From the IMG/VR virus record IMGVR_UViG_3300009370_000180, positions 1 through 22,836 of that record: 22,836 nucleotides of DNA. One strand, written 5' to 3'. The stretch comes from a virus. Both the position numbers and the translations under genes were made by a program. Below, one piece after another: positions 567-22,836 of this stretch (the stretch's first letter is position 1; the number at the start of each line of letters is the position of its first letter). Below the pieces are notes generated by a model. The model ran no database searches, was not told the origin of the DNA, and saw only the letters and a list, made by a program, of their open reading frames with translations.

Positions 567-1118
567 TTAATATCCTGCTCCTGAATTAGTTACAGGAATT
601 GTACAAGTTTGAAAATCATTCATAACTTTAACTCCTATTGTAAAAGTCCATCCACATAAAAGATTGTCAAATTTTTCTTGGAATGGCTCTATATTAAATT
701 GATCTTCTGTAAAATACAGAGGAGCATTAATATTGTCTATGCCTGCTTCTGATTGTCTTGTACTGTGTCTTAGCATACCTATAAAGTCTGTACATATTTC
801 TAAAGTCTGATTCCACACTTGCTGTTCATTATTTTTATTGTCTATTAACTTAGTTAATCCTTGTGCTTGATATGTTTGCCAATTATCTTTCTCTGCAACT
901 AAATCACAAATAAAAAGCTGAAAGTTATATACTAATTCGCTATCACCTGTAAATACTGAAACAGGATTAATATGTAACAATGGCATTTTCTCCATTTTCT
1001 CTAAATTAATAGATGCTATATCTCCAACTGATATAGTAGAGAGTTGCTGATGATATTCACCAAGCCTACATAAAGTGTCAATTACATTGTTATATGTTTT
1101 ATTTATTGTCAAGGGCAT
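567..1118 (-). CDS. Hypothetical protein, tail module (183 aa)
   Basis: No motif recognised. It is a soluble-looking alpha/beta protein; the middle (about residues 45-75) is hydrophobic and the C-terminus ends in a Gly/Ser-rich tail. Its ATG lies inside the last codons of the frameshift extension of the chaperone gene (overlap 1099-1118), so translation is probably coupled. A gene of this size next to the tail chaperones could be a tail terminator or completion protein, but no sequence feature proves that. Confidence 0.6.
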   Translation of the reverse strand: MPLTINKTYNNVIDTLCRLGEYHQQLSTISVGDIASINLEKMEKMPLLHINPVSVFTGDSELVYNFQLFICDLVAEKDNWQTYQAQGLTKLIDNKNNEQQVWNQTLEICTDFIGMLRHSTRQSEAGIDNINAPLYFTEDQFNIEPFQEKFDNLLCGWTFTIGVKVMNDFQTCTIPVTNSGAGY

Positions 1119-1359
1119 AATTTACTTTATTTTGTGATTCTAAATCTGTTTCATAACTTAACCAAGTTAAACATTCTAATAAGCTCTTATTTGTTATATT
1201 ATCTAAGTTTGATATATCAGCATTACACAACCTATACATTACACCGAACCAAGACCATTGCTCTGCGAATGAATTTGTTGCAATAGCTCTGTCATTTCCT
1301 TCTGCTGCTGTATCAAAACAGATGGCAAAATCAGTAATAATTTTTTCCCTAAATGATAA
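1099..1359 (-). CDS. Tail assembly chaperone C-terminal extension, predicted -1 frame product (GT-like)
   Basis: From the T-run at 1358-1366 the -1 frame is open for 86 codons to a TAA at 1099-1101. It passes straight through the zero-frame stop at 1239-1241. The part after that stop reads as a well-formed domain (FAEQWSWFGVMYRL, then SLLECLTWLSYETD). In lambda-type phages the G and GT chaperones are made from one gene by a -1 slip near the 3' end; this arrangement fits that model. The fused product would have 175 zero-frame residues plus 86, or 261 in all. An ATG at 1239 in this frame could also give a separate 46-residue protein through a TAATG overlap; the sequence alone cannot exclude that. 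Confidence 0.7.
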   Translation of the reverse strand, partial: LSFREKIITDFAICFDTAAEGNDRAIATNSFAEQWSWFGVMYRLCNADISNLDNITNKSLLECLTWLSYETDLESQNKVNYALDNK

Positions 1360-1883
1360 AAAAAAACCAGTGCTGATTGCACTTGCTCTGCTGACATCTT
1401 CTTCATTTCTTCCGCCCTTATACTTATGTTTCCATCATAACCCTCAATGCTATAAAATCCATTAGATGATTCTTCTGTTATTGGCCTATATAGAATTGCC
1501 ATTAGTTCAGGTAAATTTTCTTCAACTCCATTTTTTAAAAATGTTTCTAAGTCTGCATATTCCCCAAGTGTTATAGAGTCTAAATCAGGATGAAAGCCAT
1601 ACCTTTTTCCTTCTATTTCAATTTTCTTTATTAAAGAGCTATTTTTATTCTCTTGCATTTCAGCAAGTTTGCTCGTTATCAATGCAATATCTTTTAATGC
1701 AAGTTTGTCAATTAAATTTTTGGGAATATCAGATAAAGCAGATATGGTTTCTTTTGCTTCTTTTGCTTTGCTCTGATTTTTTGATTTTATAAGTTTTAGC
1801 CACCTGCCCAATGTTACATCTGACCATTTGTTAATCAGCTTAAATCTTTTGACCTCTTTATCTTGTGTAATTTTAATGTTCAT
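1239..1883 (-). CDS. Tail assembly chaperone, short form (G-like, 214 aa)
   Basis: Predicted cytoplasmic chaperone that coats the tape measure protein during tail assembly. The protein is largely alpha-helical. Residues around 10-40 include WSDVTLGRWLKL, 100-115 include SITLGEYADLE, and about 165-185 include EQVQSALVFFYHLGK; this pattern is typical of tail chaperones in Bacteroidota phages. Supporting context is its place in the tail module and the predicted -1 frameshift inside its last fifth (T-TTT-TTT at 1359-1365). Zero-frame translation past the slip adds a Gln-rich tail of 39 residues. It starts at ATG 1881-1883, immediately after a promoter-like element, with a hairpin separating it from the terminase gene. 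Confidence 0.7.
   Translation of the reverse strand: MNIKITQDKEVKRFKLINKWSDVTLGRWLKLIKSKNQSKAKEAKETISALSDIPKNLIDKLALKDIALITSKLAEMQENKNSSLIKKIEIEGKRYGFHPDLDSITLGEYADLETFLKNGVEENLPELMAILYRPITEESSNGFYSIEGYDGNISIRAEEMKKMSAEQVQSALVFFYHLGKKLLLILPSVLIQQQKEMTELLQQIHSQSNGLGSV
1359..1365 (-). other. Predicted -1 ribosomal slippery site T TTT TTT
   Basis: The zero-frame codons on the minus strand are GTT TTT TTT TAT, inside a run of nine T. This gives X XXY YYZ phasing with X=Y=T. A slip back by one base continues into TTA TCA TTT AGG and stays open for 86 codons. No clear stimulatory pseudoknot was identified downstream. Confidence 0.6.
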
Positions 1884-1993: not shown

Positions 1994-3205
1994 TTATTGT
2001 ACAAAATATTTCCCTGCATTAGGGTTATCTAAATGATATATTACATTGTATCTCACACCATCAATAGCGTGGTTGTAATTATCTACATATAACTTTGAAC
2101 CCTTATCTGCATATATGTAATTGTTAAGCTCTTTAGCTATGTTAGTTGATTCGGGAGTTATTATTAATTCAAAATCTTGCATCCGTGTTACACCACTTTC
2201 AATAGTCCCTTTTTTTACTGGTTTAATGTTTACTCCTAAATGTTTTAAGTCAGCTATTAGTCTTGGTTCTGCTGAATCAGCTATGATAAGCTTGTTGCCA
2301 ACTTTATCTAAAACAATCTGTGCTAATTCTTGTGACTTTAAGCCGTTCTTATATATATGTTCTTTTAAATAAATCTTCCTTTTGCGTTTATCTATTGCGA
2401 CTTCTGTTAAGCTGTCAGGATCAATACTAAATCCAAAGTCCATTCCACAAGAAGTCTGTAACCCATCAGGATTAAATTCTCCTATACTCCAATTCTCAAA
2501 GACAACACCTTCTGCTTTGTCTAACCACCCACCAAGTATTTTGTGTGTGTATTTTTTAAAGTTGGTATGTTTTATAGCCTTAATACGCTCTAGGAAGCTC
2601 TTAGAGAGATTGTCTTTATTATCTAGGTATGTACTATGGATATAACATATATTGTCTTTAACGCCATTAAAACCGCCTTCTACGCCTTTTCCTTCAAAAA
2701 ATCTATTATATATCCAATGTTCTTTTGTAACAGGATTCAAAATAAGTATAACCCTATTCTGTATGTCTTTTTCTCTAATGCTTAAATCAATAGTATCAAA
2801 TATATCTTCATCTATTAATTCTTCTGCTTCATCTAATACCCAACAGCTTATTCCTTGTAACGACTTTAAGTTAGCCGTCTGATTCCCTGCTGAAGTTTTA
2901 ATCCCTCTGAATAATATATCCGATTGATTGCCTGTATTTAGCACGTCTGCTTTATTAATACTAAATACATCTTCAAATCCTAGTAACCCTATCTTTTCTA
3001 AGAACTCAGGGATGATTGATAAGTGAGCTGATGTCATTGTGAATCTTGTAAAGAGTATTCTAATACCCTTAGTCATTGTAAGTAAAGTTAAAAAAGCAGT
3101 TACAGCAAAGGATTTGCCTGATCCTCTACCACCTGTTATTATAAAATAACGAGCATCAGATTCAAATAGGGGATTGTATTTTTTATTCAGTATCAGTTTC
3201 GACAA
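1994..3205 (-). CDS. terL: Terminase large subunit (ATPase and nuclease)
   Basis: DNA-packaging motor that translocates phage DNA into the prohead and cuts it. N-terminal ATPase: Walker A GGRGSGKS at 25-32, Walker B WVLDEAEE at 122-129, and a coupling-type LNP at 156-158. C-terminal RNase H-like nuclease: Asp256 in CGMDFGF, Asp310 in LIIADSAEP and Asp382 in NHAIDGVRY are the expected metal ligands. The length of 403 fits the PBSX/Terminase_3 type. The start is a TTG at 3203-3205, since a TAA lies two codons upstream, and it overlaps the small terminase gene by 23 bases. A hairpin follows the stop. Confidence 0.95.
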   Translation of the reverse strand: MSKLILNKKYNPLFESDARYFIITGGRGSGKSFAVTAFLTLLTMTKGIRILFTRFTMTSAHLSIIPEFLEKIGLLGFEDVFSINKADVLNTGNQSDILFRGIKTSAGNQTANLKSLQGISCWVLDEAEELIDEDIFDTIDLSIREKDIQNRVILILNPVTKEHWIYNRFFEGKGVEGGFNGVKDNICYIHSTYLDNKDNLSKSFLERIKAIKHTNFKKYTHKILGGWLDKAEGVVFENWSIGEFNPDGLQTSCGMDFGFSIDPDSLTEVAIDKRKRKIYLKEHIYKNGLKSQELAQIVLDKVGNKLIIADSAEPRLIADLKHLGVNIKPVKKGTIESGVTRMQDFELIITPESTNIAKELNNYIYADKGSKLYVDNYNHAIDGVRYNVIYHLDNPNAGKYFVQ

Positions 3206-3536
3206 ATGTTATAACAGGCATATTAATAACTTTATCTCCTGATGTTATATCTAATCTATTTGTTTCATTCCATCCTAGTTTTGTTTTAGCTGCGTGTATT
3301 ACAACTGATGGCACTTTGTCATTTACACAATCATAGTATTTTGATTTTATAAAGTCCTTTGATATATTTTCTATTTCATCTACTTTATCTGCAAACTCTT
3401 TATCTTCTTTAAGCCATTTATAATAGTTTGTTCTTGACAATTCTGTTGTCTTTAAAGCAGTTGTTACAACACCTAGACTTTTCTCTAGTGCTTCTAACAT
3501 TCTAGCTTTAGCTATTTGTGTTCTATTTTGTTCCAT
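3183..3536 (-). CDS. terS: Terminase small subunit
   Basis: DNA-recognition partner of the large terminase. This 117-residue protein has an N-terminal helix-turn-helix (about residues 20-44, with TTALKTTELSRTNYYKWLKE), followed by helices for oligomerisation and a short C-terminal tail. The motif order and size fit phage small terminases, and the large subunit follows with a 23-base overlap. It begins inside the epimerase gene with a 14-base overlap, so packaging and sugar genes appear to be translated from one message. Confidence 0.85.
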   Translation of the reverse strand: MEQNRTQIAKARMLEALEKSLGVVTTALKTTELSRTNYYKWLKEDKEFADKVDEIENISKDFIKSKYYDCVNDKVPSVVIHAAKTKLGWNETNRLDITSGDKVINMPVITFVETDTE

Positions 3537-4356
3537 TAATATATTTTTTTAAGTCATTTTTTATTTCCCAATTCAATATAGTTTTAGTATCATTAGGAAT
3601 AGTTACAGCATTATATCTTTCGCCTTTACGTTCAGGAATAAAGTTGATGTTATCTGTAAACATTTTAGCAACATCTATTATTTTATATTCTTTGTCAGAA
3701 CTTAAATGCCATTCTTTATTGCTATCTTGTTTTCTAACTTTGTCTAAGGCGTTTACAATATCATCTATGTGTGTAAATTGTCTGCTTTGTTTTCCATCGC
3801 CTACAACCGTTAATGCTTTCCCTTCTTTGTATTGTTTTTCAAATATACCTATTACAGTTGCATAATCTCCTTTTGATATATGATTCTTCCCATATACATT
3901 ATAAAAGTAACATACTTCATATTTTAATTTATACCATTCTGCATAGTTTTTAACTAATTCAACCATCTTAGCTTTCACCCAAGAATAAGGACTTAGGTTT
4001 TCATTCCCACCAAACTTTGAACTTGAAGCCGAATAAATCAATTTAGCATTCCATTTCCTGCATTGCTCTAATACTCTACTTGTACCCCATAAATTTGTAG
4101 TCATTAAATATTCTACATCTTTAAACGAAGGTACAACTCTTGAATATTCTCCAAAGTGATAAACTATATCTTGTTTTGGTAACTTATGTATATCCCAAGT
4201 ACAATCTTGTATATATTCTACTCCTTTAATATGATTAACTTCTTGCCCTGTAAAATAATTATCTACTGAAGTAATTGTAGCATTAGTATTTTTTTTTAAA
4301 TGCTTAATCAAATTGCTTCCTATATATCCTGCACCACCTGTTACTAATATTTTCAT
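3523..4356 (-). CDS. NAD-dependent sugar-nucleotide epimerase/dehydratase
   Basis: Extended short-chain dehydrogenase, probably acting on a UDP- or other NDP-sugar in the cytoplasm. The N-terminal Rossmann motif is TGGAGYIG (GxxGxxG with Gly7, Gly10, Gly13). The catalytic pair is Tyr124 and Lys128 (YSWVK), with a serine cluster at 111-113. At 277 residues it is slightly shorter than typical GalE proteins (about 310-340). The exact substrate cannot be read from sequence. It follows the glycosyltransferase gene with a 4-base ATGA overlap and precedes the small terminase, so it most likely makes or interconverts the sugar donor for that glycosyltransferase. Confidence 0.85.
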   Translation of the reverse strand: MKILVTGGAGYIGSNLIKHLKKNTNATITSVDNYFTGQEVNHIKGVEYIQDCTWDIHKLPKQDIVYHFGEYSRVVPSFKDVEYLMTTNLWGTSRVLEQCRKWNAKLIYSASSSKFGGNENLSPYSWVKAKMVELVKNYAEWYKLKYEVCYFYNVYGKNHISKGDYATVIGIFEKQYKEGKALTVVGDGKQSRQFTHIDDIVNALDKVRKQDSNKEWHLSSDKEYKIIDVAKMFTDNINFIPERKGERYNAVTIPNDTKTILNWEIKNDLKKYINGTK

Positions 4357-5234
4357 TTATTATTTTTGTAAAATTTTTGTAAGGTTTTACTTTTTATTTT
4401 TTTTACTTGCTTTAGTTTTAAATCATTCTTTATGTTTTTTATATCTTCCCAATCAATATCATCCCTTCTTACTAAGCCGTGTTTAAAATGTTTTCTCCAA
4501 TTTACATAATGATGTGGTCTGTTCCAAACCATTTTTGTCTCTGCATACTGTGGCCATATTTCTTCTAAAGACCTTGCTTTTAAAACCTTTTTCTCAAAAG
4601 CATTTCCTAAATACAATTCATCTTGATTACCTCCTTTCATTTTAGCAGTTGTGGATGTCTTATCTACACAGAAAGCATTAAATAATAAAGTGCATAGCCC
4701 ATTATCTAATACCTGCAAACATAAATCAACATCTTCATTATACTTTAATCTCCATCTATAAGGCATATTGTTTTTCATAAGCATTGCGCTATATGCGTGG
4801 ACATTAAGCCAAAATGGTTTTTTAGTAGATTGCGTTACGAATGTAGAATAGTTAAACCCTGTAATGCCTACATTTTCATACCTATCTGTAAATTCTTCTA
4901 AAGCTTTTATAGCTTTCTTGCCATTACAAATAATTCTATTTCCTTTGTGCGCTCTCCTAAAAGCTCTTATATTATCATCAAACACCCAATGCCTATCAAA
5001 TCCGTTTTTAATACTATCCTCCCAAGCATAATTTCTAGCAGGATAACTACCTACACCTAAGTTTGAAAAAGGTAGTTTTGTAACATATTCCTTTCCTAAT
5101 GACTTACAATAGTTGTCATATTCCTGTGGTTCAACTAATATTTGAAAATCAATTCCATCTTTAATAAATAATTTAGCTGTCATAGGGGTTTCCCATCTCC
5201 CTTTAGATACTATATAAACAGGATATCTATTCAT
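4353..5234 (-). CDS. TET-associated-type glycosyltransferase, probable DNA base modification
   Basis: The 293-residue protein resembles the TAGT family (TET/JBP-associated glycosyltransferases), which comparative genomics links to sugar addition on hydroxylated bases in phage DNA. Visible motifs are YPVYIVSKGRW (4-14), VEPQEY (34-39), PFSNLGVGSYPARN (55-68), the DDN metal/sugar-nucleotide motif (86-88) and NEDVDL (166-171, probable catalytic acidic pair). The C-terminus is very Lys-rich, compatible with DNA binding. ParB-like and epimerase genes flank it with 8- and 4-base overlaps. No TET/JBP oxygenase or hydroxymethylase is visible in this window, so the acceptor base is unknown. A surface or protein glycan target is a less likely alternative. 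Confidence 0.75.
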   Translation of the reverse strand: MNRYPVYIVSKGRWETPMTAKLFIKDGIDFQILVEPQEYDNYCKSLGKEYVTKLPFSNLGVGSYPARNYAWEDSIKNGFDRHWVFDDNIRAFRRAHKGNRIICNGKKAIKALEEFTDRYENVGITGFNYSTFVTQSTKKPFWLNVHAYSAMLMKNNMPYRWRLKYNEDVDLCLQVLDNGLCTLLFNAFCVDKTSTTAKMKGGNQDELYLGNAFEKKVLKARSLEEIWPQYAETKMVWNRPHHYVNWRKHFKHGLVRRDDIDWEDIKNIKNDLKLKQVKKIKSKTLQKFYKNNK

Positions 5235-14040: not shown

Positions 14041-14196
14041 TTATTTTTTTTTGAATTTTACAAATTTATAAATAGTAAAACATATTGCTAATATTAAAGA
14101 AAAGAAAGTTAGCAATTCATTAGCTTCTACTAATGATACTCCAATAGCTGAACCGTTAGCTATTCCTACTTGTAGTGTGTCTTTTAGGTCTGTCAT
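14041..14196 (-). CDS. Small single-pass membrane protein, holin candidate (51 aa)
   Basis: The N-terminal ~25 residues are polar/amphipathic (MTDLKDTLQVGIANGSAIGV). One transmembrane segment follows (about 28-46, ELLTFFSLILAICFTIYKF) and a basic tail KFKKK. This layout is typical of the smallest phage holins or of membrane anchors near phage lysis genes. It lies just upstream of the DUF5675 gene. Confidence 0.6.
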   Translation of the reverse strand: MTDLKDTLQVGIANGSAIGVSLVEANELLTFFSLILAICFTIYKFVKFKKK

Positions 14197-21442: not shown

Positions 21443-21472
21443 TATATAATAGATTTATTTTGATTTTATTTG
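21443..21472 (-). promoter_or_regulatory. Late promoter-like element C
   Basis: The minus strand reads CAAAT (21472-21468), 14 bases, TCTATTATATA (21453-21443). It overlaps the end of the protease gene (stop at 21455-21457) and leaves a 21-base leader before the scaffold ATG, longer than at the other copies. Confidence 0.55.
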
Positions 21473-22183
21473 ATTTTCGTTTATGATTTCATTTAAAGCT
21501 GATAGTATTTCTTCATCAGTTGGTACTTTTTCTGACATCTTTTCCATTTTGTCTGTAAAGTAACCTTCTATACTTAAGCCTTTAAGCTCTCCTGATTTTA
21601 TCTTTTCCCATAAGTCTTTGTTTTCAATTTTCATTTTTACAAACCAAGTCCCATTAGGTAGGTCAAATCCGTACATTTTAGACTTATCACTATCACCTTC
21701 TTTTATCCAACTCTCCACAGTTAGAACTCCTGACACTCTTTCGTTGTGTTCGTGAGTAGCTTTGTGATGATTGTTATGTCTTAAATATAACTCACTAGCT
21801 TTTCTAACTGTTTCAGGACTAAAATACACATAGTATTCTGAGTCAGTATTAGGATCATATCTGAAAATTTGCTTGTTAGGTATTAATGCAGGACTAACTA
21901 GCATTCGCTTTTCTTCATCTACTTTAGCAAAAGTTAAATTGTTTTTCTCCTTACCAAAGAACACAAAGTCTTGTTCTATTGCAGGTGCTGATACTAAACT
22001 TATAGCATCAATAGCTAATTCTTGACTATCATCATCAATTACCAACTCAACTATTGAGGTGGTTTTCATTTCTTCATAATGGTGGTCAGGATTTGCTTTT
22101 TGACATTCTTCTAGAGTATCATATTCACAAGCTCCTGTTTTACCCCATTTATATTTTCCATCTTTGCATTGAGTACACGGCAT
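21455..22183 (-). CDS. XkdF-like prohead protease
   Basis: A 242-residue protein of the XkdF type, predicted serine protease that processes the prohead. Key positions: a His cluster HNNHHKATHEHNE (136-148), Glu158-Ser-Trp (ESW), W180, and Ser204 in GELKGLSIEGYF (198-209), the probable nucleophile. The N-terminus holds a Cys motif (CTQC at 3-6 and KWGKTGACEYDTLEEC at 12-27), perhaps a small zinc or disulfide module. It precedes scaffold and coat genes as expected. Confidence 0.8.
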   Translation of the reverse strand: MPCTQCKDGKYKWGKTGACEYDTLEECQKANPDHHYEEMKTTSIVELVIDDDSQELAIDAISLVSAPAIEQDFVFFGKEKNNLTFAKVDEEKRMLVSPALIPNKQIFRYDPNTDSEYYVYFSPETVRKASELYLRHNNHHKATHEHNERVSGVLTVESWIKEGDSDKSKMYGFDLPNGTWFVKMKIENKDLWEKIKSGELKGLSIEGYFTDKMEKMSEKVPTDEEILSALNEIINENQIKSK

Positions 22184-22219: not shown

Positions 22220-22836
22220 TTAAATTGTAGCCCTTCTTCTAATTGCGGCTAATTTGTCTTGATTGTTTGTTATGTCATCACTTACAACATAAGCTTGTAC
22301 AGGATCAGGTTTAAGACCACCGCCTAGTTCAAAAGTACCACCCATCATTTGAGGTGCAGGGGGTTGTGCTGAAGCTGTTGCTATTGATCCCGCTGATATA
22401 CCACCACCACTTTCACTTCCAGGCGTAGGTGTATTTAATATATCCCTAACTTGCAACATACCGAAAGCACCTGTTGCAACGGCTTGTGCAATATTCCAGG
22501 GGCCATAAGGTGTTGCACCTAAAGCTGCTGTTATAGCTTCTTTTGTATTCATAATAGCCATAGCTACTGCTACTGCCTTTCCTACTGCGCTTCCCTCTCC
22601 TGCTATCTTCATAGCTACATCTGAAGTTAATTGAAGTGTCTTTACTTTAGCATCTGCTGTCTTTTCAGCTAGTAGTTTTTCAGTATCAGACGTTTTTTTA
22701 GCATTTTCTTGTTGTTTTTTATTCCAAGCATCATTATCTGCAATTATTTTATCCCATTTTGCATTATCTGCATCTTCTAATTCTTTTTCGTTTGCTTTAA
22801 TTTCTGCTGCTATCTCATTTCTTAAAGTATTAACTT
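22220..22836 (-). CDS. Tape measure protein, C-terminal part (cut by window edge)
   Basis: The frame is open from the right edge (about 205 codons visible). The first ~75 residues are a charged coiled coil (EIKANEKELEDADNAKWDKI). A hydrophobic Ala-rich segment follows (VGKAVAVAMAIMNTKEAITA), then LGATPYGPWNIAQAVATGAF and a Pro/Gly/Ser-rich tail (PTPGSESGGGISAGS). This coiled-coil plus Ala-rich hydrophobic layout is typical of the C-terminus of phage tail tape measure proteins. The next gene is a head protease, so this gene ends the tail module. An internal ATG at 22612 is not the start. Confidence 0.7.
   Translation of the reverse strand, partial: VNTLRNEIAAEIKANEKELEDADNAKWDKIIADNDAWNKKQQENAKKTSDTEKLLAEKTADAKVKTLQLTSDVAMKIAGEGSAVGKAVAVAMAIMNTKEAITAALGATPYGPWNIAQAVATGAFGMLQVRDILNTPTPGSESGGGISAGSIATASAQPPAPQMMGGTFELGGGLKPDPVQAYVVSDDITNNQDKLAAIRRRATI

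Follow-up and report, generated by a model that had tools for sequence, protein, structure and literature searches.

The gene that directly follows the large terminase in this viral genome almost certainly undergoes a real, conserved and programmed frame switch at a run of nine T's. The window, by which we mean the whole stretch of DNA analysed (22,836 nucleotides), corresponds to IMG/VR record IMGVR_UViG_3300009370_000180. We consider it probable that this is a two-product gene in the manner of lambda G/GT, that its frame switch would occur mainly through slippage of RNA polymerase, and that its products would serve as tail assembly chaperones. Sequence comparison supports the place of the switch, its -1 direction and selection for each of the two products, and from the features described below we infer polymerase slippage as the main switch and the chaperone role. 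The features discussed are as follows.

1–22,836: the window, IMG/VR virus record
1239..1883, minus strand: zero-frame open reading frame (ORF) of 214 aa, comprising an N-terminal domain (codons 1–175) and then a 39-codon zero-frame tail
1358..1366, minus strand: run of nine T's (T9), the putative slippage run, read in the zero frame as GTT TTT TTT TAT (1367–1356, codons 173–176)
1359..1365, minus strand: in-phase heptamer T_TTT_TTT, a site usable by the ribosome
1102..1362, minus strand: -1 frame extension of 87 codons (FLSFREK...WSWFGVMYRL...ECLTWLSYETD...), conserved in distant phages and prophages
1242..1361, minus strand: segment open in both frames after the T run, with selection against zero-frame stops
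1237..1241, minus strand: TAATG stop/start overlap (zero-frame TAA at 1241–1239, ATG at 1239–1237 opening a 46-codon ORF)
1994..3205, minus strand: large terminase, directly upstream of the frame-switch gene (phrog_2, 5.7e-42)
567..1118, minus strand: next gene, 183 aa, function unknown, overlapping the end of the -1 extension; related contigs have one too
22220..22834, minus strand: C-terminal part of a tape-measure-like protein; in fuller relatives its gene comes several genes after the frame-switch gene

The -1 frame is open from 1362 and reaches its stop at 1101–1099, giving a fusion of 261 residues. The original prediction had described this layout from the window, and its T run, its two stops (1239 and 1099), its fusion length and its TAATG overlap were all confirmed. 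Scanning viral contigs yielded 80 close relatives with 54–82% identity, and the downstream domain lay in the -1 frame in every close relative where it was detectable. The T run was found in 79 of 79 rows (the window and 78 relatives) in the forms GTT TTT TTT T--, CGG TTT TTT TTT and CTT TTT TTT TTC. Aligning the relatives under the fused reading, which had been proposed as a check, gave a nearly gap-free alignment. Divided into blocks of ten codons, it showed codon position 3 as the most variable in nearly every block before and after the run. Specifically, variability at position 3 of the -1 frame begins immediately 3' of the run, which places the change of coding frame at the run itself and no further downstream. 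The N-terminal domain is also kept in relatives and matches phrog_32199, a family of unknown function. Two isolates, Nonlabens phages P12024L and P12024S (~30% identical), carry T9 and the same -1 layout as the window. In their deposits the two halves are separate hypothetical proteins (genes 40 and 41 of P12024L, JQ823123.1, L082; genes 38 and 39 of P12024S, JQ823122.1, L083), which comparison shows to be joined by a -1 switch at T9.

The conservation of the run was also assessed by blind sampling, in which loci were searched for by the downstream domain alone so that the T run played no part in choosing them. The three samples were unique within themselves and partly overlapped one another. 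T9 or T10 was present in 79/79 complete unique cases in the first, in 84/84 complete cases in the second (two more were cut off at a contig edge) and in 81 of 82 in the third, the exception being a T8 in L361. The second sample took in loci from bacterial genomes, including Galbibacter pacificus, Dysgonomonas and other Bacteroidota; the T run is carried by the Galbibacter and Dysgonomonas prophages, and genome searches yielded further prophages. The gene belongs to marine Bacteroidota phages, and its frame switch is widespread, with nine or ten T's retained in hundreds of relatives. A downstream domain encoded as an independent protein, with no conserved T run, had been named beforehand as one finding that would speak against a frameshift, and this is not the pattern in the relatives. 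One distant locus, L338 (G1164:C6), has the same two-frame layout with only T5 at the junction (TCGGTTTTTCAGACG); the locus may be decayed or misassembled, or may use another site, and we leave it unexplained.

Homopolymers are typical places for sequencing and assembly faults, and the frame break might in principle reflect such an error or a decayed gene. We attach practically no probability to this, because every independent contig examined shows the same -1 offset, as do the two isolate genomes.

Stop-coupled reinitiation at the TAATG overlap, by which the final 46 codons would be translated as a small protein of their own, had been named as a competing model. The overlap is present in the window and similar ones occur in part of the close clade, but the ATG is found in 98 of 129 close relatives (missing in 31) and in none of the 171 distant ones. 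In many close relatives the zero frame ends 14 codons earlier, and conservation of the -1 frame starts at the T run, well before the ATG. With the ATG absent from distant relatives and the -1 frame conserved upstream of it, reinitiation fails as an explanation and was rejected as very improbable. The TAATG is most readily understood as an incidental outcome of Val followed by Met in the -1 frame (GTA ATG). A distant homologue, L341 (G1135:C15), also argues against a separate small protein, holding the N- and C-domains in one 258-codon frame with no switch (hhalign 95% and 81%). For L330, support covered the C-domain only, and this locus was consequently not used as a fusion. The C-domain of L342, used as a query, retrieved no viral relative.

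Selection on the shorter product was investigated by holding the -1 residues fixed and resampling codons from each sequence's own usage, then counting stops in the zero frame. Family-wide, the 50 codons after the run contained 0.72 zero-frame stops observed vs. 2.22 expected (ratio 0.32), and six controls, four of them in the N-terminal domain and the others being the third frame and the later zero frame, gave ratios of 0.99–1.11. The window's own clade (129 sequences) had 0 zero-frame stops in codons 3–16 after the slip vs. 1.35 expected and showed no depletion beyond. Among distant relatives the zero frame is nearly stop-free for ~55 codons and then returns to expectation. Depletion in the window taken alone was not significant (p 0.135). 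The depletion across the family indicates that both products are selected, and favours a partial, programmed switch over an obligate one. The gene shares with the G/GT class a -1 switch that joins two frames and an N-terminal domain common to both products.

The length of the run was then compared with its codon phase. Among 300 unique protein pairs, chosen for a run of at least 7 T's, T9 occurred in 268, T10 in 31 and T8 in 1, with all three codon phases occupied. How many T's an in-phase T_TTT_TTT requires depends on the codon position at which the run begins: nine for position 1, eight for position 2 and seven for position 3. Runs starting at position 1 had nine T's (9 pairs) or ten (16), and those starting at position 2 had nine (244), ten (15) or eight (1). 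Runs starting at position 3 had nine T's in 15 of 15 pairs, though the heptamer needs seven. Counting T's on either side of the TTTTTT core in 104 non-redundant representatives gave, as pairs of before and after, (2,1) in 71, (1,2) in 13, (2,2) in 8, (3,1) in 7, (3,0) in 4 and (2,0) in 1, so that fewer T's on one side of the core go with more on the other. Where the codon before the core supplies a single T, a TT- codon follows the core, and the total stays at nine. Given the residues and the heptamer, nine T's already follow in the main phase, so that the remaining phases have to carry the case for selection on length. At least 15 changes of phase were counted on a tree from which the run had been left out. 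Compensation between the 5' and 3' sides could be compared in only 3–5 tree-independent pairs; nearly all went in the expected direction, but the number was too small for significance. Random synonymous recoding of the same residues produced nine or more T's at this place in 22% of draws, so the 79/79, 84/84 and 81/82 of the blind samples exceed chance.

According to a review, runs of nine A/T are sites of efficient in vivo slippage by bacterial RNA polymerase (PMC5009743), and a genome survey found that avoidance of A/T runs in genes usually starts at nine nucleotides (PMC1088944). A switch by transcriptional slippage calls for a homopolymer of roughly nine A or T, and 9 or 10 are present in 299 of the 300 unique pairs. 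Because the length is kept in every codon phase and an RNA stimulator was not found, polymerase slippage fits better than ribosomal slippage, and judged from these sequence features it is probably the mechanism at T9. The single T8 (L361) and the single T5 (L338) run counter to this reading. Any nine-T run contains an in-phase T_TTT_TTT, and ribosomal slippage is therefore never excluded by sequence alone.

A purely ribosomal -1 frameshift on U_UUU_UUU, with tRNA-Phe in the P and A sites, would likewise give two products, and we regard it as a possible though distinctly less probable account. A heptamer of the X_XXY_YYZ type that such a shift uses is in phase in every pair tallied. The Phe codons at the core are all TTT (76% elsewhere) and the preceding Val codon is GTT (37% elsewhere). 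Ribosomal -1 shifting is moreover established in tail assembly genes, and some phage cases seem to be stimulator-free (PMC5009743). This account does not, however, predict nine T's in a phase that needs seven, or the near absence of other run lengths across a broad family, and U_UUU_UUU is a weak ribosomal site, far less shift-prone than A_AAA_AAG in Escherichia coli (PMC5009743). The stimulator that usually, if not obligatorily, accompanies a -1 ribosomal frameshift was also not found. Folding of the 80 bases downstream gave no RNA structure (mean z −0.11, 60 loci), RNAalifold returned no consensus pair for 28 aligned sequences, no hairpin was seen upstream of the run, and a Shine–Dalgarno (SD)-like motif lay upstream of the run in 14 of 238. 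The frameshift proposed originally thus holds as a -1 switch, and ribosomal slippage is not its better-fitting cause.

Under polymerase slippage, in-frame reading through T9 would give the 214-aa short product, and entry into the -1 frame after T9 would give the 261-aa product with its second domain. RNA polymerase would be the main source of the switch, slipping on T9 and inserting one extra U, or any number equivalent to one modulo 3, so that a minority of mRNAs would lead normally translating ribosomes into the -1 frame. The ratio of products would be set by the length of the run. Both products would act as tail assembly chaperones, and the extension would bring tail subunits to the tape-measure complex.

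Recoding by the ribosome is the textbook account of frame switches in tail assembly genes. The lambda G/GT chaperones (Xu, Hendrix and Duda 2004, as cited in PMC5009743) resemble the present gene in having two products from one start, the longer reached by a -1 switch, in the tail region. They differ in that the lambda shift is ribosomal and lies near the end of G, whereas here a T9 of conserved length sits in a gene after the terminase and the zero frame runs on, under constraint, for tens of codons. Searches also gave no family match to known chaperones. A nine-base A/T run is used in dnaX of Thermus thermophilus (PMC5009743), where the homopolymer likewise partitions expression between two products; unlike the present gene, dnaX is a cellular DNA polymerase gene, and its slippage leads to the shorter product, whereas here slippage would lead to the longer. 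In Shigella spa13 and Citrobacter tssM1, genes of secretion machines, slippage on an A/T homopolymer adds a C-terminal extension, and for tssM1 the authors remark that a ribosomal stimulator is lacking (PMC5009743, PMC4256274). These are not phage genes, and such sites are uncommon in tssM according to the authors, whereas here nearly the whole family has one. The genes of P12024L and P12024S are direct homologues with T9 and the -1 layout, differing in that the frame switch is unannotated in the deposits.

Searches of the PMC literature, where most subscription papers are absent, turned up no tail chaperone reported to use transcriptional slippage. We lean slightly towards a tail-gene family across Bacteroidota in which polymerase slippage on nine T's would set the product ratio, with dual-frame coding after the run. 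If true, phages could set the ratio of tail products at transcription, and the conserved element would be homopolymer length in any phase. Gene pairs that deposits currently list as unrelated hypothetical proteins would also gain full-length products, and the stretch 3' of the run would offer a natural case of two overlapping frames under constraint.

The identity of the protein was investigated by sequence, fold and gene order. Searches of Pfam, NCBIfam and the sequences of solved structures gave nothing credible. The predicted structure of the N-terminal domain is confident (mean pLDDT 87); against PDB folds it had no match at E 0.001 and one uninformative VIA-align row (Z 2.2). In the viral fold library BFVD its closest matches were uncharacterised phage proteins, and weak matches named tail assembly chaperone stood at ranks 45 and 47 (E 0.09 and 0.14). 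Matches to the C-domain model were not used because the model is poor (mean pLDDT 65). A G/GT-type gene is expected between the tail tube and tape measure genes. Here the gene follows the terminase, with the tape-measure-like gene several genes downstream. Together, gene order, architecture and the weak fold matches make a tail assembly chaperone role likely; gene order and architecture render the lambda-type label given initially plausible, but a match by sequence or solved structure did not emerge. The switch could also be real in a protein of another kind, for example another tail or neck assembly factor, under either slippage mechanism. The families are unannotated, the gene sits beside the terminase and several genes ahead of the tape measure, and the lack of a solved-structure match points the same way. 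We nevertheless consider this unlikely, as a gene of the tail region that makes two products through a -1 switch shows the hallmark of tail assembly chaperones (PMC5009743) and two weak BFVD matches carry that name.

Several other features of the window were observed. The record ends mid-gene on both sides, in an ATG-started frame at 1–50 on the left and in the tape-measure-like gene at 22220–22836 on the right; judging by relatives of ~28–32 kb, this suggests that several kb of the tail region are missing. An XkdF-type phage serine protease domain lies at 21455–22183 (PF14550, 3.9e-19). Two more nine-base A/T runs occur at 4289–4297 and 14044–14052, within predicted minus-strand ORFs (3523–4356 and 14041–14196, respectively). 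Between the small terminase and other early genes, the region at 3523–5234 holds genes that by eye are sugar-epimerase-like and glycosyltransferase-like.
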